Source of the DNA: Arthrobacter sp. PAMC25284
GTDB lineage: Bacteria; Actinomycetota; Actinomycetes; Actinomycetales; Micrococcaceae
DNA: 64,000 nt
NCBI RefSeq assembly: GCF_019443425.1
Contig: NZ_CP080382.1
Span: 2,294,001-2,358,000, forward strand
Direction: 5' to 3'
The notes under the pieces are model-generated. The model was given only the letters and a program-made list of their open reading frames with translations. It made no database searches and was not told the origin of the DNA. Position numbers and translations under genes: made by a program. The stretch's first letter is position 1, and every line of letters begins with the position of its first letter. This document shows, piece by piece, positions 11,084-23,609 of this stretch.

Positions 11084-14000
11084 TCAGCGGTGCCGCTGGT
11101 CCGGGTAGCGGAATTCATGCTCCTGACCGGCCCGGAGCAGCGCCTGTTCCGCGCCGACCCGGACCAGGACCGGGTCGGCGTCGCCGGGGGCGGCCGAGAC
11201 CTGCAGCCGGCCGGTCTCGAGACGGACGGACAGCAGCTGGTCCCGGTACCGGACCTGGAAAACCACCTCGTGGAGCTGCGCGGGCAGCCTCGGGGTGAAG
11301 TGCAGGGCGTCGCGGGTGATCCGCAACCCGGCGAAGCTGCGCTGGACGACATCGATCGAGCCCGCCATGGCGCCCAGATGGATGCCGGCGCGGGTCGTTC
11401 CGCCCTGGGTGTCGTCCAGATCCGCGTCGAGTGCTTCCCGGAACGTGGCCCAGGCCCGCTCGGGGTCCCGCTGCGCCAGCACGGACGCGTGCGCCACGCG
11501 GCTCAGGGTGGAGCCGTGGGCGGTACGGGCCAGATAAAAATCGACGGTGGCGGTGATTTGCGCGGGCGTCACCGAATAGCCCATGCGGCCCAGGAAGCCC
11601 AGCAGCTGGTCTTCGCCCAGGACGTACAGGAGCATCAGGACATCGGCCTGCTTGGCCAGCCGGTAGTGGTTGGTGCTGTCGCCTTCGGCTTCCAGAATCA
11701 GGTCCAGCCGCTCAATGTTCCCGTAGGTCCGGCGGTAGTGGTCCCAGTCAAACTCCCGGAGGGAACTGTAACCGTCAAACTGGCTGATGATGCCGTCGCC
11801 GTGGAACGGAACGAACATCCGCCGGCTCAACCGCTCCCAGCCTTCGATTTCCGCTCCGTCGACGCTGAGCCTGGCGCGCAGTTCGTCCATGTCGAACCCC
11901 TGGACGGAGTGCATGATCCAGACCGCCTGGTCAAAGACCCAGGCCGCCATGATGTTGGTGTAGGCGTTGTCAGCGAGACCGCCGCCAGGGTCGCCCGGGG
12001 GGCCGGTATGGTACTCATCCGGCCCCATGACCCCCCTGAGGTGAAAACGGTCCTCCACAGTGTCATGGTCCGCGAGGGAGGCGAACAGCCTCGCGACCTC
12101 CACCACGATTTCCGCACCATGGCTGATCAGCCAGGCGCGGTCCTGCGTGGCCTCGAAATATTGCCAGGCGTTGTAGGCGACTGCCAGGCCAACGTGCCGC
12201 TGCCGCCGGGAGTAATCCGGCATCCAGTGGCCGGACAATCTGTTGAACAGCATTGTGGGTGTTTGCTCGGTGCCGTCGCTGCCGCTCTGCCACGGGAACT
12301 GCGCGCCCCGGAGCCCGGCCGCGCGTGCGGCATCCCGGGCTGTCCCGAGCCGCCGCCAGCGGTAGTCCAGCATCTCCCGGACAAGGGCGGGGCTCCGTGA
12401 GTTCAGGACGGGCAGGACAAAAAGTTCATCCCAAAACACATGCCCCCGGTAGCCTTCGCCGTGCAGCCCGCGGGCGGGAACTCCGGCGTCCAGCTCAGCC
12501 GTGTGCCCGGTGAGGGTCTGGAGCAAGTGGAACACATGCAGGTTCAGGATCAAACGTGCCTGCGACGGCGCATCGAACTCGATAATGAAGGGGGCCAGCA
12601 GCTGGCCCCAGGCCGCCTCATGTTCCGCGAGCAGGACCTCAAAGCTCGGGTCCGCCCGGTCCAGTGCCGTGAGGGCCGCGGTCCGGGGCGAAGAGATCGC
12701 GCGGTCCCGGGAGGTGGCAACGGCAACCGTTTTCGTCACGGTGACCGGCGCCCCCTCGGTAATCGCAAGCTCGAAACGGTGGCTGTGCAGTCCAGCCAGT
12801 TGCTCGGGGGTCCCGTGCACAGGCTCAGGCGGGCCGGCGACGTCGGTGCGGAGGGCCATGGCAATCCCGATCCGGCTCTGGTTTGTCTGCGCTTCCACAG
12901 TCAAGCAGGCGCCCGAACCTCCACCGCGGCTGCCGATGACGGAACCGCTGCCGGTCGCGGCTCCGCCGTCGCCGCCACCGGACGCGGAAACACTGACGTC
13001 GGTCAGGTGCCGTCTGGCCAGCTGTCCGTCGTCGGGCACGTTCGCGTTCGTGACCTCCGTGTCGCAGCCGCTCCGGACGCTGATAGTGCCGCTCCAGCCC
13101 AGTGCGGTCAGCGTCATTTCCAGTGCGGCCAGATGCGGTTCAGCCATGGAGACTATCCTGCGCTGGAGTACCTGGAGCCGGCGTCCGGCGCCGTCCTCGA
13201 GCAGCGTTTCCCGGCTGAGCAGGCAGCGCTTGAGGTCCAGGGTGCGGCGTTCGCTCCGGAGCCTCAGCCCACCGCCGGACCACCAGTCCCCGCGCTCAAT
13301 CCGGACGTCCAGCGGCAGCCAGTCCGGGATGTTGACCATGTGCTCGTCCACGGATTCCTGGCCGTCGACGACGCTGCGGAGGCTGTTGTAGATCCCGGCA
13401 AGGTAGGTTCCGGGGTAGTGCACCCCGTCGGCGCGGTGTTCGGGGGCCGCTCCCCTGGTGGCCATATATCCGTTGCCGAGGGTGGTCAGCGCCTCCCGGT
13501 GCCCTTCGTGAACCGGGTCGGAGCCCGCATAGGTCAGCAGCCACGGGTCGGTGATGACCAGCCCGATGTCCAGCTCGATGACGTCTTCAACCACGACGTC
13601 GGCTCCGGCGGCTTCCAGTGCAGCGCGGCGTCCGGCGCGGTCGAGGCCCACCACCAGACCGAACCCGCCGCGGCGGCCCGCTTCGACCCCGGGGAGTGAT
13701 TGAGCGATGACCATGGCGCGCGACGGGGCAATCTCCAGCCGACGGACAGCCTCAAGTACGAGTGCGGGGGCCGGCTCGCCGGCAACGTGACGGTCCACGG
13801 CCGTCTGTCCGTCGATGACGAAGTCAAAGGCGCCCCGGAGACCGGCTGCCGCCAGGACCGCGCCGGCGGTCCGGCTGGAGGTAGCCAGGACCACGGGGAT
13901 CCCGCCGGCCCGGAGGCGCTTCAGGAATCCGACGGTGCTGGGGAAAACACGCACCGGATGCTCACGGAGAAGGTGCGCAAACACGTCATCGTGGCGTGCC

Positions 14001-14314
14001 GCCAGTCCGAACACGGTCCATTCCCCGGGGGTGTCGGACGGACGGCCGGGCGGTATCGAGACCCCGCGGGAGGCGAGGAAGGCTGCTGCCCCTTCTTCCC
14101 CGGTTCGCCCCTCGATGCAGCCAGTGAAGTCGCTGTCCAGAAGCGGACCCCGCCTCGCCTCCGTGGGGAGCCGCGCGTCCTGCAGCACGGCGTCGAACAG
14201 TTGCCGCCAGGCCGCGATCCGCAGCCCGGTGGTGTCCGTCACGACGCCGTCGAGGTCAAAGATCACGGCGTCGACAGGCGCCAGCGCGGCGGCAACAGTC
14301 GGCGACTCCGTCAT
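11084..14314 (-). CDS. fused HAD phosphatase/mutase and family 65 glycoside phosphorylase or hydrolase
   Basis: A 1076-residue fusion. Residues 1 to about 250 are a beta-phosphoglucomutase-type HAD domain, with nucleophile motif FDLDGVVTD and LATSSRTAG. From about 260 the sequence is GH65, with PWLLTYAG, TLGNGYMATRG, the catalytic acid region GVMGPDEYHTG, and the C-terminal GSTLSRVAHA. GH65 enzymes act on alpha-glucobioses such as trehalose, maltose or kojibiose, and a linked HAD would process the glucose 1-phosphate product. The architecture recalls mycobacterial OtsB1 but without a central trehalose-phosphatase domain. The ATG at 14314 follows TAGGAATGAACC. A second, unfused pair lies at 31-34 kb. 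Confidence 0.85.
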   Translation of the reverse strand: MTESPTVAAALAPVDAVIFDLDGVVTDTTGLRIAAWRQLFDAVLQDARLPTEARRGPLLDSDFTGCIEGRTGEEGAAAFLASRGVSIPPGRPSDTPGEWTVFGLAARHDDVFAHLLREHPVRVFPSTVGFLKRLRAGGIPVVLATSSRTAGAVLAAAGLRGAFDFVIDGQTAVDRHVAGEPAPALVLEAVRRLEIAPSRAMVIAQSLPGVEAGRRGGFGLVVGLDRAGRRAALEAAGADVVVEDVIELDIGLVITDPWLLTYAGSDPVHEGHREALTTLGNGYMATRGAAPEHRADGVHYPGTYLAGIYNSLRSVVDGQESVDEHMVNIPDWLPLDVRIERGDWWSGGGLRLRSERRTLDLKRCLLSRETLLEDGAGRRLQVLQRRIVSMAEPHLAALEMTLTALGWSGTISVRSGCDTEVTNANVPDDGQLARRHLTDVSVSASGGGDGGAATGSGSVIGSRGGGSGACLTVEAQTNQSRIGIAMALRTDVAGPPEPVHGTPEQLAGLHSHRFELAITEGAPVTVTKTVAVATSRDRAISSPRTAALTALDRADPSFEVLLAEHEAAWGQLLAPFIIEFDAPSQARLILNLHVFHLLQTLTGHTAELDAGVPARGLHGEGYRGHVFWDELFVLPVLNSRSPALVREMLDYRWRRLGTARDAARAAGLRGAQFPWQSGSDGTEQTPTMLFNRLSGHWMPDYSRRQRHVGLAVAYNAWQYFEATQDRAWLISHGAEIVVEVARLFASLADHDTVEDRFHLRGVMGPDEYHTGPPGDPGGGLADNAYTNIMAAWVFDQAVWIMHSVQGFDMDELRARLSVDGAEIEGWERLSRRMFVPFHGDGIISQFDGYSSLREFDWDHYRRTYGNIERLDLILEAEGDSTNHYRLAKQADVLMLLYVLGEDQLLGFLGRMGYSVTPAQITATVDFYLARTAHGSTLSRVAHASVLAQRDPERAWATFREALDADLDDTQGGTTRAGIHLGAMAGSIDVVQRSFAGLRITRDALHFTPRLPAQLHEVVFQVRYRDQLLSVRLETGRLQVSAAPGDADPVLVRVGAEQALLRAGQEHEFRYPDQRHR

Positions 14315-14437: not shown

Positions 14438-16374
14438 AAATCGTGCTCAAATATCCGCTCGTTGCAGGGACGGTCGCCGCGCTGTCGGCGGTCATCATCC
14501 TGCTGCTGTCCGGGCAACCCGGCATCGCCCGGCTCGCCGCAAGCGTCTACGCCCTCGCCGTGGCTCTCTACCTCGCCGTAGGGATGATCCGCCGCCTGCT
14601 GGGCGGACGGTGGGGCATAGATATCCTGGCTGTCACCGCGATCGTCAGCACTGTGCTGGTCGGTGAGTTTTTGGCCTCGATGATCATCGTCCTGATGCTG
14701 GCCGGCGGAACGGCATTGGAGGACTACGCGGCAGGCCGGGCCAAGGGGGAGCTGACAGCCCTGCTGGAGCGTGTTCCGCAGACGGCCCACCGGGAACGCC
14801 ATGGTAACCACGCCGACGGCAACGGCAACAACGTCGGCGGCAACCACGAGGAAGTGGCGGCCACCGACGTCCGGATCGGGGACATCCTGTTGGTCAAACC
14901 GGGCGAAGTGGTGCCCCTGGACGGAATCCTGCTCTCTGCATCCGGCACGTTCGACGAATCCTCGCTCACCGGGGAAAGCCTTCCGGTGGAGCGGACCGCC
15001 GGGGACCCGCTCATGAGCGGATCCCTCAACGGGGAAGCTGCGGTCCGGATGCAGGTCACGGCGTTGCTGGAAGATTCGCAGTACAGCCGGATCATCGCAC
15101 TGGTCAAGGAGGCCTCGGACAGCAAGGCCCCCATGGTTCGGCTGGCTGACCGCTACGCCGTGCCGTTCACCGCCTTCGCCTATCTGCTGGGCGGCGCGGC
15201 CTGGATCATCAGCGGCAGCCCCGCACGGTTCGCGGAGGTGCTCGTGGTGGCCACACCCTGCCCGCTGCTGATTGCCGCGCCGGTGGCCTTCCTCGGCGGC
15301 ATGAGCCGGGCCGCCCGCGCAGGCATCATCGTCAAGTACGCTGGCGTCCTGGAACAGCTGGGACGGATCAAGACCGCCGCGTTCGACAAAACCGGGACCT
15401 TGACCCACGGCCAGCCGGCCCTCGTCGCCGTGCGGACCTCCGGGATACTGCCGGAGGACGAGGTGCTGCGCATGGCGGCCTCAGCCGAACAGTATTCCTC
15501 GCATGTTCTCGCAGCTTCGGTCGTCAACGCCGCCCGCTCGCGGGGCCTGATGCTGGCGACCGCCGCCGAAGCCACCGAATTCGCCACCCATGGGGTCCGC
15601 GCCCGGTTCGATGGCCGGGACGTGGTGGTCGGCAAGCCAGGCTTCGTAGCGGAGTCGGTCCCCGGGGTGCGGGCGGCGGACCTGGACAGCGGCGAGATCG
15701 CCGTTTACGTCGGGGTAGGCGCGGAGTTCGCTGGTTCGCTCATCCTCAGCGATCCGATCCGCCCCGAAGCCCGCCGGACCCTCAGCGAGCTCCGGGACCT
15801 GGGTGTGACGCAGACCGTGATGCTGACCGGCGACGCGCTCCCCACAGCGCAGCACATCGCGACTGAGGCGGGCCTTACCGATGTCCGGGCGGAGTGCCTG
15901 CCGGCGGACAAGGTGGACGCGGTCCGTTCGTTGCCTGACCGGCCTGTGATGATGGTCGGCGACGGCGTCAACGACGCCCCCGTGCTGGCGGTCGCCGACG
16001 TCGGCATCGCCATGGGAGCCCGGGGTTCGACGGCGGCGGGCGAGTCCGCCGACGTCGTGATCATCCTCGATGACCTGTCCAAGGCGGCGTCTGCGGTCCG
16101 GATCGGGCAGCGCACGGTGCAGGTGGCGCTGCAGAGCATCTGGATCGGCATTGGACTCAGCGTGGCCCTGATGCTGGCCGCCGCGGCGGGCTACGTCCCG
16201 GCCGTCGTGGGCGCACTGTCCCAGGAACTGGTGGACCTGGCCACCATCCTGAACGCGCTGCGCGCCCTGAGCGGAGGCCGGACCCATGGCGCCGGCAAGA
16301 GCGGCGGCGCCGGCACGCCTGCCGCCGGGCTGAAGCCCGGGCTGCCGCCGGCGCGGGGAGACCTACCCCGCTGA
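14434..16374 (+). CDS. P1B-type heavy-metal-transporting ATPase
   Basis: A 646-residue membrane pump. There is no N-terminal metal-binding domain. Visible are membrane helices from residue 5, actuator motif SLTGES, transport-site TPCPL at about 274-278 (instead of CPC), phosphorylation motif DKTGT at about 320, MLTGD, and hinge MVGDGVNDAP near 507. A His/Asn/Gly-rich insert (about residues 119-140) sits in the first cytoplasmic loop and could bind metal. The conserved nucleotide-domain HP dipeptide appears as HV in SSHVLAAS. The metal is not clear: TPCP types have been linked to divalent ions. The GTG start overlaps a small upstream ORF. Its last 12 bases overlap the convergent ppsA end. Confidence 0.87.
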   Translation: MKIVLKYPLVAGTVAALSAVIILLLSGQPGIARLAASVYALAVALYLAVGMIRRLLGGRWGIDILAVTAIVSTVLVGEFLASMIIVLMLAGGTALEDYAAGRAKGELTALLERVPQTAHRERHGNHADGNGNNVGGNHEEVAATDVRIGDILLVKPGEVVPLDGILLSASGTFDESSLTGESLPVERTAGDPLMSGSLNGEAAVRMQVTALLEDSQYSRIIALVKEASDSKAPMVRLADRYAVPFTAFAYLLGGAAWIISGSPARFAEVLVVATPCPLLIAAPVAFLGGMSRAARAGIIVKYAGVLEQLGRIKTAAFDKTGTLTHGQPALVAVRTSGILPEDEVLRMAASAEQYSSHVLAASVVNAARSRGLMLATAAEATEFATHGVRARFDGRDVVVGKPGFVAESVPGVRAADLDSGEIAVYVGVGAEFAGSLILSDPIRPEARRTLSELRDLGVTQTVMLTGDALPTAQHIATEAGLTDVRAECLPADKVDAVRSLPDRPVMMVGDGVNDAPVLAVADVGIAMGARGSTAAGESADVVIILDDLSKAASAVRIGQRTVQVALQSIWIGIGLSVALMLAAAAGYVPAVVGALSQELVDLATILNALRALSGGRTHGAGKSGGAGTPAAGLKPGLPPARGDLPR

Positions 16375-18762
16375 GGGAAGGCCTTCCGCGTTCTCCGCTT
16401 CGGCAATGGCCGGGACGGTCAACAGGAAGCTGTCAGGGTTCAGCGAGATCGAATCAATGCCTTCGCGGACCAGGAATGCGGCGAATTCCGGGTGGTTGCT
16501 GGGACCCTGGCCGCAAATACCGATCTTGATCCCCGCGGCGTGGGCCTTGCGGATGGCCTCGCTGATCATGGCCATCACGGCCGGATCCCGCTCATCGAAG
16601 AGCGCCGCAAGCTGCGCCGAGTCCCGGTCCACACCCAGGACCAGTTGCGTGAGGTCATTGGAACCGATGGAAAAGCCGTCGAAGCGGGTGGCGAATTCCT
16701 CGGCCAGGACGACATTCGCGGGAATCTCGCACATCATGTAGACCTGCAGCCCATTTCCGCCGCGGACCAGGCCGTTCTCCGCCATCACCGCCAGCACCTT
16801 GTCCGCCTCCTGCGTGGTGCGGCAGAACGGTACCATCACGATCACGTTGCTGAAGCCGAGCCGTTCGCGGACGCGTTTGAGGGCAGCGCATTCGAGGGCG
16901 AAACCTTCCCGGTAGCGGTCGTCGTAGTAGCGGGACGCGCCGCGGAAACCCAGCATGGGGTTCAGCTCCGGCAGTTCGAACGCGGCGCCACCGATCAGGT
17001 GGGCGTACTCGTTGGTCTTGAAGTCGCTGAGCCGCACTATCACCGGGAGCGGGTGGTAGGGCGCGGCGAGCTTGCCGATGCCCCGCGCGAGGGTATCCAC
17101 GAAGTACTCCGTCGGGTCCGGGTAGCCGCTCGTCAGCGCCCGGATCTGCTCCGTTTCGGCGGAATCCGCGACCCGGTCCGGATGCACCAGCGCCATCGGA
17201 TGGATCCGGATCAGGTTGCTGATGATGAATTCCATCCGGGCGAGTCCGACACCGGCGGCGGGCAGCCGCCACCACTGGAAGGCGGCGGCGGGGCTGGCGA
17301 TGTTGACCATCACGGCGGTGCGGGTCGCGGGCAGTTCGCCGAGGTCCACTTCTTCCGTCTCGAACGCCAGGCTGCCGGCATAGACCCGGCCCTGGGCCCC
17401 TTCGGCGCAGGAAATCGTGACGGCCTGTCCCTCCGCCAGCACGCCGGTTGCGTTGCCGGTTCCGACGACGGCCGGCACGCCCAGCTCCCGGCTGACGATG
17501 GCCGCATGGCTCGTGGGTCCGCCATGGTCCGTCACGATCCCGGCCGCGCGCTTCATCACGGGCACCCAGTCCGGGTCGGTCATTTCCGTGACCAGGATGG
17601 CGCCGTCACGGAACTCAGCGATGTCCGCGGCTGTCCGGATCACGCAGGCCGTGCCGTGGGCGATGGAGTCGCCAACCGCTGATCCGGTCGCCAGCACCTC
17701 GCCTCTCTCCAACAGGTGGTGAAGCACGAAGCGCGGGCCGGTCTTGCGCGACTGGACGGTTTCGGGCCGGGCCTGGACCAGGAAGAGCTCGCCGGTGACG
17801 CCGTCACGGGCCCATTCCATGTCCATCGGCCGCCCGTAGTGCTCCTCGACGGTGACGGCCCACCGGGCGAGGGCGAGAATTTCGGCGTCATCCAGAACGA
17901 AAGTCCGGCGTTCCGCGTCCGAGGTGTCCATCATCCGGGTGCGGGCGCTGCCGCCGCGGCTGTACACCATTTTCCGTTCCTTGGACCCGAGGGTCTTTTC
18001 GATGATCGGTGCCAGGTCCGGGTCCGTCAGGAGGGGCTTGAACACAACATAGTTGTCCGGGTTGATGGTGCCCTGGACGACGGTTTCGCCGAGTCCCCAG
18101 GCGGCGCTGATCACGGCGGCGCGGGGAAACCCCGAATCGGTATCGATGGAGAACATCACACCGGACGCGCCGACGTCGGACCGGACCATCCGCTGCACCC
18201 CAATCGAGAGCGCGACGTCGAGGTGGCCAAATCCTTTGATCTCCCGGTAGCTGATGGCACGGTCGGTGAAGAGCGAGGCGTAGCAGCGGCGGCAGGCGTC
18301 CAGCAGGTCGCGCTCCCCCGCCACGTTCAAAAAGGTCTCCTGCTGCCCGGCGAAACTCGCGTCGGGCAGGTCCTCGGCCGTGGCGCTGCTGCGGACGGCG
18401 ACGGAGAGCCGCTCCAGTCCGGCCCGCCGGCCCAGTTCCCGGTAGTGGGTGCGGATGGACCCGGCGATGTCGACGGGGAATTCGCTCTCCAGGAAAAGCG
18501 CCCGGATGGCCTCGCCGGTGGCGCGCAGCGTGGCTTCCCCGGCCCGGTAGTCGCGGATCCGCGAGCGCATGGCCGCCTCGATCCCGTTGGCATCGAGGAA
18601 CGCCCGGTAGGCGTCGGCCGTGGTGGCGAACCCGTCGGGGACGCGCACGCCCCGAGCGGTGAGCGACCGGATGAGCTCACCGAGGGAGGCGTTTTTGCCG
18701 CCTACTTGCGCGACATCGCCGATGCCCGTGTCCTCAAACCACTTCACCGGGGATTGAACCAT
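16363..18762 (-). CDS. ppsA: phosphoenolpyruvate synthase
   Basis: A 799-residue enzyme that makes PEP, AMP and phosphate from pyruvate, ATP and water for gluconeogenesis. Order: N-terminal ATP-grasp domain (VGGKNASLGELIRSL, VAVRSSATAEDLPDASFAGQQ), swivelling phospho-His domain (DHGGPTSHAAIVSRELG, His near 420), and C-terminal PEP-binding TIM barrel (NPMLGFRGASRYY, SIGSNDLTQL, GICGQGPS). The ATG at 18762 (MVQSPVKWFED) has GGGAG upstream. Another ATG at 18786 is possible, and the frame stays open to 18942 without homologous sequence. It converges with the P-type ATPase with 12 bases of overlap. Confidence 0.9.
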   Translation of the reverse strand: MVQSPVKWFEDTGIGDVAQVGGKNASLGELIRSLTARGVRVPDGFATTADAYRAFLDANGIEAAMRSRIRDYRAGEATLRATGEAIRALFLESEFPVDIAGSIRTHYRELGRRAGLERLSVAVRSSATAEDLPDASFAGQQETFLNVAGERDLLDACRRCYASLFTDRAISYREIKGFGHLDVALSIGVQRMVRSDVGASGVMFSIDTDSGFPRAAVISAAWGLGETVVQGTINPDNYVVFKPLLTDPDLAPIIEKTLGSKERKMVYSRGGSARTRMMDTSDAERRTFVLDDAEILALARWAVTVEEHYGRPMDMEWARDGVTGELFLVQARPETVQSRKTGPRFVLHHLLERGEVLATGSAVGDSIAHGTACVIRTAADIAEFRDGAILVTEMTDPDWVPVMKRAAGIVTDHGGPTSHAAIVSRELGVPAVVGTGNATGVLAEGQAVTISCAEGAQGRVYAGSLAFETEEVDLGELPATRTAVMVNIASPAAAFQWWRLPAAGVGLARMEFIISNLIRIHPMALVHPDRVADSAETEQIRALTSGYPDPTEYFVDTLARGIGKLAAPYHPLPVIVRLSDFKTNEYAHLIGGAAFELPELNPMLGFRGASRYYDDRYREGFALECAALKRVRERLGFSNVIVMVPFCRTTQEADKVLAVMAENGLVRGGNGLQVYMMCEIPANVVLAEEFATRFDGFSIGSNDLTQLVLGVDRDSAQLAALFDERDPAVMAMISEAIRKAHAAGIKIGICGQGPSNHPEFAAFLVREGIDSISLNPDSFLLTVPAIAEAENAEGLPSAG

Positions 18763-18987
18763 GATGCCTGCGCTCCCACCCGTCATTGCCGGACAGTGTT
18801 TGTGATGGAGCCGTGTTTGGCGGCCAGCTGCTGCCTCTGATCTTTCCCGGCACCGTGCCCGCCCGGCAGAGTCTTTGGACCTTGCGACCGGTAGTCGGCG
18901 GCGGGCGGCTTGCGCCGGATGGCCGGCGGGGCGGCCGCACATCCATAGGCGTGCCCTCCCGCGGCGCGCCCGGTACGCACGGCTGTG

Positions 18988-19788
18988 TCAGCCGGCCGCG
19001 GACGGCCGGTAGCGTTCCAGATCCCGCAGGTAGGTGCCGAAGCCTTCCGGGGCCCGGGGCCGGGTCCGCCCGGACGTCAGCACCCGCACGCTGTCTGTGC
19101 TGGTGACCGTGAACGCGCTGCTTCGGAGGCGCTGAATGAGGATCGTGTCCTCGTGCGAGGCGGCGTCCGGGAACCCGCCGGCCGCCACATAGGCCGACGC
19201 GCGCACTCCAAGATTGGCCCCGTAGACGTGCGGGTGATCCTCGGTGAAAGGATGGCGTTCCCGCCAGCGCCGAAGCAGTTCCGGATCCATCCCGTCGGGG
19301 TCCGGCTCCACCGAGCCCAGCACGGCGTCGGCACCGGCATCCGCGAACTCGAGCTGACGCACCAGCCAGTTCTCCGGGACCTGGGAGTCGGCGTCGGTGT
19401 TGGCCAGCCAGATCCGGGCCGCCGGCCGTGGCGTCCAAGGCAGTGTTCCCGGTTGCGCCGGACTGGGACCGATGCCGGCGGCCCGGATTCCCGCGGCACG
19501 GCTGGCACCGGCGCTGCGGAACGGCACCTCAACGGCGCTGATGCGGCGGTCGGCGGCAACATGCCGTGCCGTGATGCGCGCCGAACCGTCGGTGCAGCCA
19601 TCCAGCACCACCATCACGCCGCATTCCACCTCGGGCAGGGTCCGGTGCAGGGTGTCGACGGCCCGGCGCGCCGCGTTGAGGGCCCGGTCCAGATGCTCTT
19701 CCTCGTTGTGGGCCGGCATCACCACAGCGACGCGCGCGATGCGGTTCCGCGACGGCAGCGGCCCGGCGGTCGTGGCCATCCGGGTCAC
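18988..19788 (-). CDS. family 2 glycosyltransferase
   Basis: A 266-residue GT-A fold enzyme with the N-terminal strand VAVVMPAHNEEEHLDRAL, VVLDGCTDGS, and the metal-binding NTDADS near the middle. HPHVYGANLGVRASAY and SHEDTILIQRL are usual acceptor-region blocks. No membrane segment is seen, so it is likely cytoplasmic. Its ATG overlaps the stop of the upstream PIG-L/methyltransferase gene (ATGA), and that gene in turn overlaps the acyl-CoA dehydrogenase gene, so the three are translated together. Sugar donor and acceptor are unknown. Confidence 0.85.
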   Translation of the reverse strand: MTRMATTAGPLPSRNRIARVAVVMPAHNEEEHLDRALNAARRAVDTLHRTLPEVECGVMVVLDGCTDGSARITARHVAADRRISAVEVPFRSAGASRAAGIRAAGIGPSPAQPGTLPWTPRPAARIWLANTDADSQVPENWLVRQLEFADAGADAVLGSVEPDPDGMDPELLRRWRERHPFTEDHPHVYGANLGVRASAYVAAGGFPDAASHEDTILIQRLRSSAFTVTSTDSVRVLTSGRTRPRAPEGFGTYLRDLERYRPSAAG

Positions 19789-21227
19789 CGGTCCAGTTCC
19801 GGGGCGACGGCCAGGCCGGCGTCCGGGGCGGCGGCCAGGCCGGCGTCCGGGGCGCGAAGAACCTCAAGAACGAAGTCCCGTTCCCGGTACAGCCCGGCAT
19901 CGGCCCAGCCCAGCTGCCGGTGCGCGGCGGCATGCACGGCGTCGCCGTCGAGTTCCCAGCCGTCGATGGGATGCCGCCAGTGGCACAGGAGCAGGGTCCC
20001 GCCCGGCCGCAGCGTCCCCTCGACCCGGGAAAACAGCGAGGCCAGTTCATCCGGCGCAAGGTAGTACCCCACTTCCGAGACCACAATCAGGTCGAAGGTT
20101 TCGTCCGGCCAGTCCTGCGGAACGGTGAGCTGGCGGGTCCGGGCCGAGGGCAAGTGTGCGAGCCGGGCGGTGGCGTGCCCCAGTGCTGCGCTGCTCGCAT
20201 CGACGGCAAGGAAGCTGTCGCAGCGCTGCGCCAGGTCTGCGCTCAGCGTCCCGATCGAGCAGCCAATTTCCAGCCCGGAGGCGTAGGAATGTTCGGGCAG
20301 CACGGCAAGGGTGAGGGCACGTTTGCGCTGTTCATACCGGCTGCCCGTGTAGTCCCAGGGATCATCGCCGCGGCGGTGGACGGCGTCGAAAACGGTCTCC
20401 GCGTCGGCGGCGGCGTAGGCCCGCCCGGAGGCTCCGGCGTGCCCCGGGCGCTGCCAGGCATACGTCTCCCAGGACCGCTCGAAGTGTTCCAGAAAGGCCG
20501 GCGGCAGGAGCACTTCATCCCCCGGCAGGGGCGACAGCGCCCGGATCTGCGAACCGTGTGAGGCCATGGCGGCAGTTTTCGCCTGCTGTTCCGCCGGGCT
20601 TAGTGGCAGCCGGCGCCAGGCCCGCCATGCCTCGTCGTCCGGGTCCGCCCACAGCCAGTACCAGATGGGGTACTCCAGCAGCCCGTACCCGCGGGCGGCG
20701 CAAAACTCGGCGGCGACGGACCCCAGCGTCTCGTGGTCCGTGTGCCCGTCGTGGCGGTACGGGGCGACGACGATGGTCCGGTCCGTATTCCGGCTGGCGT
20801 CGGCGTCAGCCAGTGCCCTGCTTATCTGCTCCCGGTGCCCGGCAAGGTTCCCGTCCCGCAGACCCAGGTAACGCCAGTCCGCCGCCGGACCGGCGGGGTC
20901 CGGGGCCGGCTGGAGCTGCGCCAGCGCGGCGGCGAATTCCGCCAACCGGACAGCGGCAAGCCGGTCCGGCGTCGTCGTCGGCGATCCGGGATGCGAGGCT
21001 TCCCCTGCCGTGCACAGCAGGACCGTGATGCCGGCCCCGAGTCCCTGCAGCCGGGTGAGAAGTCCGCCGGCGCCCAGGGATTCGTCGTCGGGGTGGGCAG
21101 CGAGGACAATAAACGTCGTCCGGGCGAGTTCAGCAGCGTCCAGCGGCAGCTCTGGAAGCGCCGTCAGGCCGCCGGCCGCCCAGTGGTCTGCGCTGGTGCC
21201 GGCGTCTTGGTGGGTAAATTTCACCAT
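19785..21227 (-). CDS. bifunctional PIG-L deacetylase / NodS-like methyltransferase
   Basis: A 480-residue fusion. The N-terminal half is a PIG-L (LmbE) deacetylase with the zinc motif AHPDDE, a second block RHDGHTDHE, and GYGLLEYPIWYW. Such enzymes remove acetyl from N-acetylglucosamine groups. From about residue 290 a class I SAM methyltransferase follows (WDYTGSRYEQRKRALTLA, LEIGCSIGTLSADLA, DLIVVSEVGYYL), which looks like NodS, the N-methyltransferase of rhizobial Nod-factor synthesis. A degenerate repeat (PDAGLA) lies at the C-terminus. It is coupled by overlap to genes on both sides. Joint deacetylation and N-methylation of an amino sugar is my inference. Confidence 0.85.
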   Translation of the reverse strand: MVKFTHQDAGTSADHWAAGGLTALPELPLDAAELARTTFIVLAAHPDDESLGAGGLLTRLQGLGAGITVLLCTAGEASHPGSPTTTPDRLAAVRLAEFAAALAQLQPAPDPAGPAADWRYLGLRDGNLAGHREQISRALADADASRNTDRTIVVAPYRHDGHTDHETLGSVAAEFCAARGYGLLEYPIWYWLWADPDDEAWRAWRRLPLSPAEQQAKTAAMASHGSQIRALSPLPGDEVLLPPAFLEHFERSWETYAWQRPGHAGASGRAYAAADAETVFDAVHRRGDDPWDYTGSRYEQRKRALTLAVLPEHSYASGLEIGCSIGTLSADLAQRCDSFLAVDASSAALGHATARLAHLPSARTRQLTVPQDWPDETFDLIVVSEVGYYLAPDELASLFSRVEGTLRPGGTLLLCHWRHPIDGWELDGDAVHAAAHRQLGWADAGLYRERDFVLEVLRAPDAGLAAAPDAGLAVAPELDR

Positions 21228-22438
21228 GGGTCCCCTCCGGCCAGGGTCAGGCCGCCCAACTGGGCGTCGTCTCGCATTGCACGGTGCTGGAGAAGATACA
21301 GCGAGAGGTCCGCCATCCGTTTTCCGTATTGTTCGTCAAAGACCAGCGGTCCCGGCCCCAGGTTCTGACTCACCAGTGACTGGATGTGTCCGACGGCGGA
21401 AGCGACAGTTCCCCTCACGCGCAAGGCCTCGTTCCAGGCTCCCGGGCCGGAGAGGTCTCCAGCGTCGATTCTGGCGGCCGCCTGGGCCAGGCAGGCCCGC
21501 AGGGCGCTCAGGGTGCGGTCAATTTCGCCGAGGTGGGCCAGGGCAACCTGGTCCGGGTCACGTCCGCCGGCCGCCGTGTCCCGCAGCGATCCGGCAAAGC
21601 CGCGTGCCACCGCGACGGCGCCCCCGAACCAGCAGGCGGCAACTCCCATCCCGCCCCACGCGAATCCGGGGCGCCGGTAGTACCAGCCGGGTCCGCCCAG
21701 CGGCACGGCCGGGACGTCCTCGAAGTGGACGGTGCCGCTGGGGATTTCGCGGAGCCCCCTGCTGGTCCATCCCGGGTCCGCGACGTCAACGCCCGGGGCG
21801 CGGAGGTCGACGGCAAAGGCGGCCCGGGCGCCGGCGTCCGTGTGGGCCGTCACGACCGCCCCGTCCAACTGCGCGGCGAGCGAGCACCACGGTTTCGATC
21901 CATGCAGCCGAAAGCCGTTGCCGGTTGGCCTGGCCTCCAGCCGAAGTCCCGCCGCCTCAGCCGCGAAAACGCCCCAGGTCCCCGCCGGTCGGAGCCCCTC
22001 AGCCTCCGCCGGTCCGCGGTCGGCTGGCGCGGCGCCGGCCGTGGTGGCCGTGCTGGCCGTGCTGGCCGTGCTGGCCGTGCTGGCCGTGCTGGCCGTGCTG
22101 GCCGTGCTGGCCGTGCTGGCCGTGCTGGCCGTGCTGGCCGTGCTGGCCGTGCTGGCCTGGGCCAGGATGGCGGCCGCATCCAGATGCGGTTCGAGCACCC
22201 GGCCGGCCGCGACGTCGACTGCGGTCACGGAGGCCAGGATTTCCCACAGCTGGGCTGTTCTGCCGTCCCCCGGCGACGGAGCAGTCCCGGCGGCGGTCTG
22301 CGCCAGCTCAAGGAGCGCCGGCACGTCGCCGCTGGCTGCGTGCGCCGCGGACAACAGGGGTCCGAGCGCGTGGAGGCCGGTGTCGGGCGAGCTGATCCTG
22401 ACGGCCCGCGGGCTGTCCGCGGTGGAAGTCCCGGTCAT
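21221..22438 (-). CDS. acyl-CoA dehydrogenase-like flavoprotein with Ala-Ser-Thr repeat
   Basis: A 405-residue protein resembling acyl-CoA/acyl-ACP dehydrogenases, with GTWGVFAAEAAGLRLE, LHGSKPWCSLA, the FEDVPAVPLG block and a C-terminal helical bundle. The catalytic Glu is not identifiable by eye. Near residues 94-132 a 9-bp tandem array encodes a run of Ala-Ser-Thr units that lengthens a linker between the N-terminal helical part and the beta domain. It is first in an overlapping three-gene set with the PIG-L/NodS-like and GT2 genes, so it may desaturate an acyl chain in the same product rather than act in fatty acid breakdown. Confidence 0.8.
   Translation of the reverse strand: MTGTSTADSPRAVRISSPDTGLHALGPLLSAAHAASGDVPALLELAQTAAGTAPSPGDGRTAQLWEILASVTAVDVAAGRVLEPHLDAAAILAQASTASTASTASTASTASTASTASTASTASTASTASTATTAGAAPADRGPAEAEGLRPAGTWGVFAAEAAGLRLEARPTGNGFRLHGSKPWCSLAAQLDGAVVTAHTDAGARAAFAVDLRAPGVDVADPGWTSRGLREIPSGTVHFEDVPAVPLGGPGWYYRRPGFAWGGMGVAACWFGGAVAVARGFAGSLRDTAAGGRDPDQVALAHLGEIDRTLSALRACLAQAAARIDAGDLSGPGAWNEALRVRGTVASAVGHIQSLVSQNLGPGPLVFDEQYGKRMADLSLYLLQHRAMRDDAQLGGLTLAGGDPW
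22041..22157. repeat. 9-bp minisatellite, 12 perfect copies
   Basis: Twelve identical gtgctggcc units (22050-22157) preceded by one variant unit gtggtggcc (22041-22049). The period is a multiple of three, so copy-number change lengthens or shortens the Ala-Ser-Thr linker without breaking the frame. All six frames stay open across it. Confidence 0.95.
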
Positions 22439-23270: not shown

Positions 23271-23609
23271 TTAAACCTGCCCGGGCTCCACTGGAACGTC
23301 AATTGCCTTTTCCAACCGCTCCACTTTACCGGCGAGTTCGCCTGAGAACCCGGGACGGATGTCCGCTTTGAGCACGAGGGAGACGCGGCTGCCGAAGCGC
23401 CCCGCGGCGTCCGTCGCACGTTTGATAACGTCGAACACCTCATCCCAGTCGCCCTCGATCGTGGTGAACATGGCATCCGTATGGTTCGGCAACCCGGACT
23501 CACGGACGATCCGCACCGCCGCTGCAACGGCATCGTGGACGGAGGCATCGCCCGGAGCCGGACCGCCGGCGGGGGCACCCGAGGGGGCAACGGAAAATGC
23601 AACGAGCAT
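23271..23609 (-). CDS. thiamine-binding protein, MTH1187/YqgV family
   Basis: A 112-residue single-domain protein. The opening MLVAFSVAPSG, the centre GLPNHTDAMFTTIEGDWDEVFDVIKRA and the ending VSLVLKADIRP are typical of the MTH1187 (DUF77) fold. Members bind thiamine or its pyrimidine and are thought to help thiamine salvage. The ATG at 23609 follows AAGGGAATTGATCC. It lies upstream of the O-methyltransferase gene, 48 bases away, on the same strand. No thiamine transporter is near, so the role rests on family only. Confidence 0.8.
   Translation of the reverse strand: MLVAFSVAPSGAPAGGPAPGDASVHDAVAAAVRIVRESGLPNHTDAMFTTIEGDWDEVFDVIKRATDAAGRFGSRVSLVLKADIRPGFSGELAGKVERLEKAIDVPVEPGQV

Follow-up and report, generated by a model that had tools for sequence, protein, structure and literature searches.

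Gene set and its conservation

The DNA considered here (the window) is a stretch of 64,000 nucleotides from Arthrobacter sp. PAMC25284 (contig NZ_CP080382.1, positions 2,294,001 to 2,358,000), whose genome of 3.88 Mb forms a single contig. It contains three minus-strand open reading frames (ORFs) encoding a flavoprotein with the fold of acyl-CoA dehydrogenases (ACADs), a fusion of a PIG-L de-N-acetylase with a NodS-like S-adenosylmethionine (SAM)-dependent methyltransferase, and a family 2 glycosyltransferase (GT2) (Table 1). As the genes share the minus strand and overlap by 7 nt and then by 4 nt, transcription runs from the flavoprotein over the fusion to the GT2 gene. An earlier note on this DNA, made from the sequence alone, had described an overlapping three-gene set in which deacetylase and methyltransferase form one polypeptide. 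Both statements were confirmed: the ORFs were recovered at this position, all on the minus strand, and the fusion protein matches the Pfam families PIG-L (84.2 bits, cut-off 28.2) and NodS (PF05401; 51.1 bits, gathering score 24).

Table 1. Coordinates of the cassette genes, their domains and an upstream gene in the window
Feature	Position	Strand	Evidence and remarks
Flavoprotein gene, ACAD fold, 405 aa, first of the cassette	21221..22438	-	ORF, Pfam, model
9-bp tandem repeat, in frame, 13.4 copies, 99% match	22037..22157	-	within the flavoprotein gene
Fused PIG-L de-N-acetylase/NodS-like SAM methyltransferase gene, 480 aa	19785..21227	-	ORF, Pfam, NCBIfam, model
PIG-L domain, residues 41-175, with HPDDE (45-49) and DGHxDH	20703..21107	-	Pfam
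NodS-like class I methyltransferase domain, residues 288-418	19974..20366	-	Pfam, NCBIfam, PDB, fold
GT2 glycosyltransferase gene, 266 aa	18988..19788	-	ORF, Pfam
O-methyltransferase gene, PF01596 149 bits	22545..23222	-	Pfam; 106 bp upstream of the flavoprotein gene, co-directional

The three genes represent a local version of a so far uncharacterised cassette of four genes, which occurs across phyla and is partly plasmid-borne. A search with the fusion protein gave full-length relatives (E ≤ 1e-50) in 33 of 59 genomes, its own included, and all 30 loci from the fusion-protein search (L004-L033) contained the four domains in identical order, which argues that the gene set is not a product of chance. 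The fused form was observed in loci retrieved with the fusion protein as query. In annotated plasmid records from five genera, deacetylase and methyltransferase are encoded by two neighbouring genes, and on the plasmids of Pandoraea, Acinetobacter towneri and Sulfitobacter all four genes lie side by side, unfused and in that same order. All four are also present in Kitasatospora, there with an unannotated GT2, and a Deinococcus plasmid exhibits a TnpB gene followed by PIG-L and methyltransferase, with a flavoprotein relative before TnpB. Fusion homologues are already named 'bifunctional PIG-L family deacetylase/class I SAM-dependent methyltransferase' at NCBI, which gives the domains without a function.

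As a survey with the fusion protein as query would be circular, named genomes were also searched with the flavoprotein only (four-row alignment as query), and the best 80 of 365 confirmed stretches were used. Within 4 kb of the flavoprotein, PIG-L was present in 71, the methyltransferase in 72 and GT2 in 67 of these loci, the GT2 match of L115 reaching just 26 bits. Two evenly drawn samples gave a similar linkage. Among 198 Actinomycetota genomes the flavoprotein occurred in 21 and the deacetylase/methyltransferase model in 23; both occurred in 20, and were adjacent in all 20. The flavoprotein was found in 22 of 299 Pseudomonadota genomes, centre genome included; in the 21 loci examined (G244 was left out) the cassette contained the methyltransferase in all 21 and PIG-L in 17, and the stretch had a GT2 match in 15, with that of L192 on the opposite strand. 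Some distant members (L160, L161, L162 and L164) have a permuted gene order, yet the genes remain linked. In 60 loci with a complete set, correlations of 0.87-0.92 were obtained between the pairwise distances of the four proteins. That the trio is conserved together, for which the earlier note had proposed a neighbourhood survey, is thus borne out by linkage in the 80 named loci and in both samples.

No paper that treats the cassette as a pathway was found in the open full-text literature, which does not include most subscription papers. The accessible parts of PMC8092242, PMC13130816, PMC6599016, PMC12029717, PMC6181384, PMC10325922, PMC4694148, PMC10653896 and PMC10696468 do not mention it.

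Six Mycobacterium loci (L084, L093, L097, L102, L113 and L115) exhibit the flavoprotein alone or with PIG-L only, four of them with katE within 10 kb; the cassette may be decaying there, and a diverged methyltransferase could be overlooked. An Achromobacter cassette without PIG-L (L044) adjoins an ATP-dependent DNA ligase and an Lhr-type helicase, and in L050 the genes of the same ligase and helicase ORF clusters, identified by cluster only, lie on the other side of the cassette.

Predicted activities of the four enzymes

The deacetylase motifs HPDDE and DGHxDH are conserved in all 32 PIG-L-bearing rows of the structure alignment (A5). In the model of the fusion protein (mean predicted local distance difference test score, pLDDT, of 90) the PIG-L half matches the folds of LnmX (5bmo) and of a chitobiose deacetylase (4xm1). 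The nearest deacetylase models are BshB1 and MshB. Identity with MshB (NCBIfam 33.3 bits, cut-off 224) or BshB (35.4 bits, cut-off 182.5) was rejected, and with it, on these cut-offs, membership among the mycothiol enzymes. Ten loci from distant Actinomycetota (L152-L159, L163 and L165; kinship 'same phylum', families f32 and f23) exhibit a different arrangement: in all ten, a PIG-L match is absent and a polysaccharide deacetylase gene of carbohydrate esterase family 4 (CE4) lies directly upstream of the flavoprotein gene. The nearest NCBIfam model of this CE4 deacetylase is NodB, with 113 bits below a cut-off of 240 bits (one protein tested). Among the other loci searched, L121 alone gave a match to the CE4 profile, 1.7 kb beyond GT2. 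That two unrelated de-N-acetylases fill the same slot suggests that an N-acetyl group is taken off at this step. The fused enzyme would hand the amine straight to methylation.

Two side observations concern this domain. Three Achromobacter genomes (L143, L145 and L146) contain, away from the cassette, open frames of 736, 785 and 769 aa with a PIG-L match, which possibly represent an in-trans deacetylase. In L120 and L135 of the Arthrobacter group the PIG-L part of the fusion lies in three pieces in different frames, so that the fusion gene may be broken there.

By sequence and by fold, no characterised protein is closer to the methyltransferase than NodS. The nearest solved relative is 4isc (131 bits), a putative methyltransferase from Pseudomonas syringae, followed by NodS (3ofj, 51 bits), and 4isc also heads the fold list (TM-score 0.93 by target) before NodS; unlike the domain in the window, 4isc is a single separate domain, and its title gives no function. 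Against NodS 3ofk_B, the best characterised fold match, the model reached a TM-score of 0.83 by target (root mean square deviation 2.6), and DDPW and SEVxYYL stretches are common to both proteins. The structural comparison suggested by the earlier note, together with the Pfam match, therefore upholds its NodS-like assignment, whereas the cut-off of the NCBIfam equivalog for NodS (NF041650) was not reached (57.5 bits against 300).

The glycosyltransferase matches, within Pfam, only Glycos_transf_2 (PF00535; 49.5 bits, cut-off 23.3), and the GT2 models matched are of the exopolysaccharide type (EpsD, 34 bits for the window protein). No hydrophobic segment of at least 1.6 on the Kyte-Doolittle scale was found in any of the three window proteins, the highest 19-residue hydropathy of the GT2 being 0.87. 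Judged from their sequences, this lack would fit a cytosolic product.

The flavoprotein was called acyl-CoA dehydrogenase-like in the earlier note, which stands for the fold and fails for the catalytic residue and for the C-terminal domain. The model exhibits a complete ACAD fold (pLDDT 83), and Pfam reported the middle domain Acyl-CoA_dh_M alone (PF02770; 35.7 bits, cut-off 33.3), the C-terminal ACAD domain PF00441 being absent from the matches. Acyl-CoA dehydrogenases usually employ the Glu of their EGT motif as catalytic base. In a full-length profile-profile alignment with ACADs of the same genome, the position of this Glu is occupied by Gln or Ser in the family and by His in the window protein, and the Glu is also missing from the GFWHGGAGVAACW stretch of the flavoprotein. 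The best matches of the family profile are the monooxygenases TdsC (1.7e-13) and DszC (5.5e-12), with ACAD-type proteins following from 1.9e-10. Among the top Foldseek matches TdsC, KijD3, DszC and nitrososynthases were interspersed with dehydrogenases, and VIA-align left monooxygenases and dehydrogenases tied. Furthermore, all ten CE4-type loci contain a Pyr_redox_2 reductase gene after the methyltransferase gene, with GT2 beyond it in nine of them (the stretch of L159 ends there), and this reductase is nearest to oxygenase ferredoxin reductases (NCBIfam, one protein tested). No reductase was found among the neighbours scanned in the window (seven ORFs with Pfam, seven with NCBIfam). As the Glu is lost, the profile is nearest to TdsC and DszC, and the CE4-type loci include a reductase, acyl-CoA dehydrogenation by this protein appears unlikely and oxygenation more likely.

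We propose that the flavoprotein is a flavin monooxygenase or oxidase of the group D type. According to PMC5481743, group D monooxygenases have an ACAD fold, obtain reduced flavin from a separate reductase, which can be an unrelated one of the host, and include N-hydroxylases. The cassette flavoprotein shares with group D members such as DszC, TdsC, KijD3, DnmZ and the nitrososynthase 3mxl both the ACAD fold and a KxFCSG/KxWCSG stretch, and in one cassette group an oxygenase-type reductase gene lies inside the operon; KijD3 acts on an amino sugar. Yet, identity to these enzymes amounts to only about 16-21%, and true ACADs come level by fold and first with the single flavoprotein sequence.

The tandem repeat within the flavoprotein gene encodes a linker of Ala, Ser and Thr at about residues 94-134, which joins the N-terminal helical domain to the middle domain. 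The pLDDT of the model is below 50 at residues 114-138, and the repeat is absent from all 11 relatives with a readable linker (14 examined).

Stress-gene neighbours and proposed function

The link to stress genes is the main clue to the function of the cassette. The trehalose synthesis gene otsA lies within 10 kb in 32 of the 80 flavoprotein-anchored loci (6 of 28 genus-level labels), and the catalase gene katE, counted above 100 bits, in 19 of 80 (6 labels); exclusion of the weak KatE matches of L044 (28 bits) and L080 (42 bits) lowers this count from 21 to 19. A co-directional otsB-otsA-cassette array was found in Psychrobacter, Comamonas, Delftia, Giesbergeria and one Acinetobacter (A. indicus). 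The counts in the 80 loci are weighted by Psychrobacter, Mycobacterium and Acinetobacter, and the less biased Pseudomonadota set includes otsA in 3 of 21 and katE in 3 of 21 loci. By simple arithmetic, 20 kb of a 4-6 Mb genome corresponds to about 0.3-0.5% per single-copy gene. A Dps-like ferritin cluster lies directly upstream of the flavoprotein gene in four Arthrobacter-group loci (the member in L126 was checked with Pfam). The remaining ORF clusters found in at least five labels belong, judged by one representative each, to the LysR, SDR, ABC ATPase and FadE families or represent an antisense shadow.

On the A. towneri plasmid, 14 kb suffice for the cassette, otsAB, katE and a gene for an 'iron-containing redox enzyme'. 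A DtpC-KatE operon is described in PMC13232832, and the 'iron-containing redox enzyme' near the cassettes of A. towneri, A. populi and A. puyangensis is, by annotation and position, likely a relative of DtpC. Expression data, which do not depend on gene neighbourhood, point in the same direction. According to Table 2 of PMC5660220 (RNA-seq), the A. baumannii genes ACICU_02432-02435, annotated as glycosyltransferase, SAM methyltransferase, LmbE and acyl-CoA dehydrogenase-related protein and marked as one operon, are down 31-62-fold in colistin-dependent mutants, together with otsA and otsB (12-50-fold) and catalase (22-31-fold); the section holding this table does not discuss the quartet. Its order was matched on an A. 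baumannii chromosome.

Our preferred reading, which we hold tentatively and regard as somewhat short of probable, is that the cassette may make an intracellular amino-sugar conjugate, N-methylated and possibly oxygenated, for general stress or desiccation survival. The GT2 would link an N-acetylated sugar, probably N-acetylglucosamine (GlcNAc) supplied as UDP-GlcNAc, to a soluble acceptor. Deacetylation by the PIG-L domain, or in the distant group by the NodB-type CE4 enzyme, would follow, and the NodS-like domain would N-methylate the freed amine. The flavoprotein, in the two-component manner of DszC and KijD3 and with reduced flavin from a separate reductase, would oxygenate the amine or a nearby position. 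The analysis itself shows the gene set, its linkage, the intact deacetylase motifs, the NodS-like fold, the loss of the Glu, the replacement of the deacetylase and the stress neighbours, and the co-expression in A. baumannii is taken from published data; substrate, reaction order, product, oxygenation and protective role are what we infer.

Several observations weigh against this reading. With the window flavoprotein as lone query, the ACAD 2dvl (2.1e-8) ranked first and TdsC reached only 0.013, which speaks against an oxygenase. A deacetylase is absent nearby in Achromobacter and Paraburkholderia loci (6 of 80), in 4 of 21 Pseudomonadota loci and in L164; other PIG-L genes were found elsewhere in the genome in the three Achromobacter, one Paraburkholderia and one Mycobacterium genomes checked. 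Moreover, as otsA and catalase lie distant from the cassette in the window's own genome, the stress link is one that we infer there.

Amino-sugar pathways that combine a glycosyltransferase with a deacetylase are already known. The breadth of the cassette, the exchange of its deacetylase and its link to stress are what makes it of interest. A four-enzyme set in Actinomycetota, Pseudomonadota and others that is tied to trehalose synthesis and catalase would imply an overlooked stress metabolite. In Acinetobacter, for which survival on dry surfaces is important, the quartet, known by domain names alone, is among the genes lowered more than 10-fold with otsAB and katE. The cassette family also suggests that Nod-type deacetylase and N-methyltransferase logic exists outside symbiosis. 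A bolder version of our reading, which we consider unlikely as a whole, would be a new class of stress protectants: soluble glycosides with an amino group that is first N-methylated and later N-oxygenated, proposed as a hydroxylamine, nitrone or N-oxide, and which would serve as a redox-active counterpart of trehalose across phyla and partly on plasmids, with PIG-L and NodB-type CE4 enzymes independently recruited for the same step.

Alternative readings and neighbouring genes

Modification of an envelope glycan, with a modified amino sugar added to, or edited on, a lipo-oligosaccharide, capsule or wall polymer under stress, is a rather unlikely alternative. The exopolysaccharide-type matches of the GT2 would fit it, as would the drop of the A. 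baumannii quartet in colistin-dependent mutants. Colistin dependence is tied to the cell surface. However, the three window proteins lack a hydrophobic segment, the cassette itself contains no transporter, polymerase or lipid-carrier gene, and it occurs in Gram-negative and Gram-positive bacteria, whose envelopes are unlike each other. An ABC-ATPase cluster lies within 10 kb in 6 genus labels; this family is large, and most other recurring clusters were left unannotated.

Two further alternatives appear improbable to a similar degree. According to the first, the product would be a low-molecular-weight redox cofactor similar to mycothiol or bacillithiol, made as a conjugate by glycosyltransferase and PIG-L enzyme and then given a redox-active decoration. 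It is established that a glycosyltransferase followed by a PIG-L deacetylase opens both the mycothiol and the bacillithiol pathway, and by analogy the cassette resembles the pairs MshA-MshB and BshA-BshB, which act on a GlcNAc conjugate. BshB1 and MshB as nearest deacetylase models and the katE and Dps-type genes close by in some genomes would also agree with this idea. Yet, the MshB and BshB cut-offs were missed by far, the cassette glycosyltransferase is a GT2, whereas MshA and BshA belong to GT4, and instead of a cysteine ligase the cassette contains a methyltransferase and a flavoprotein. According to the second, the cassette would make a specialised metabolite, an antibiotic- or signal-like amino sugar, with the stress neighbours being incidental. 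KijD3 and the nitrososynthases, which are antibiotic amino-sugar enzymes, have the fold of the flavoprotein, and the PIG-L fold comes near that of LnmX from Streptomyces atroolivaceus; however, the cassette is small and without an internal export gene, and otsBA or katE adjoin it in several unrelated genera.

A Nod-factor-like product as envisaged in the earlier note, an N-methylated amino sugar built by GT2, deacetylase and N-methyltransferase and then given an acyl chain that the acyl-CoA dehydrogenase has desaturated, is quite improbable: NodS as nearest characterised methyltransferase, the NodB-nearest deacetylase tested in the distant group and a flavoprotein that keeps the ACAD fold and is, as a lone sequence, nearest to dehydrogenases are outweighed by the lost Glu, the monooxygenase-nearest family profile, the missed NodS and NodB curated cut-offs, the lack of an acyltransferase among the neighbours scanned and the short, non-hydrophobic GT2. 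No acyltransferase, NodA included, was found among the seven neighbouring ORFs scanned with Pfam and the seven with NCBIfam, the rest of the window being unscanned. NodC is membrane-bound, and by length, domain content and hydropathy the GT2 does not resemble such a membrane synthase, NodC itself being left out of the comparison. In the window, the cassette has PIG-L (PF02585) in place of a NodB-type CE4 deacetylase (PF01522). Besides, the cassette differs from rhizobial NodB/NodC/NodS in its additional flavoprotein, its spread over several phyla and its stress context. An acylated or lipid product is hence not supported, given the scanned neighbours, the flavoprotein without the Glu and a GT2 unlike NodC. 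What remains credible is the logic of deacetylase, N-methyltransferase and GT2, as one distant actinobacterial group exchanges PIG-L for a CE4 deacetylase that is, in the one protein tested, nearest to NodB. The Nod analogy is therefore useful for the deacetylase and methyltransferase steps, and not for acylation or chain synthesis.

Among the genes around the cassette, the O-methyltransferase gene is a possible accessory. Its cluster was seen in only part of the Arthrobacter-group loci (13 of 21). Further upstream and co-directional, a thiamine-binding protein (PF01910, 85 bits) is encoded at 23271-23609 (-), with its cluster in 9 of the 21 Arthrobacter-group loci. On the other side, an 859-aa protein of the phosphoenolpyruvate synthase/pyruvate phosphate dikinase type (16363-18942, -) begins 45 bp past the GT2 stop, with its cluster in 3 of 21 loci. 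A fusion of a HAD hydrolase with a glycoside hydrolase of family 65 (1076 aa; 11084-14314, -) lies 4.7 kb downstream of the cassette, and its family 65 part is presumably similar to maltose or trehalose phosphorylases.

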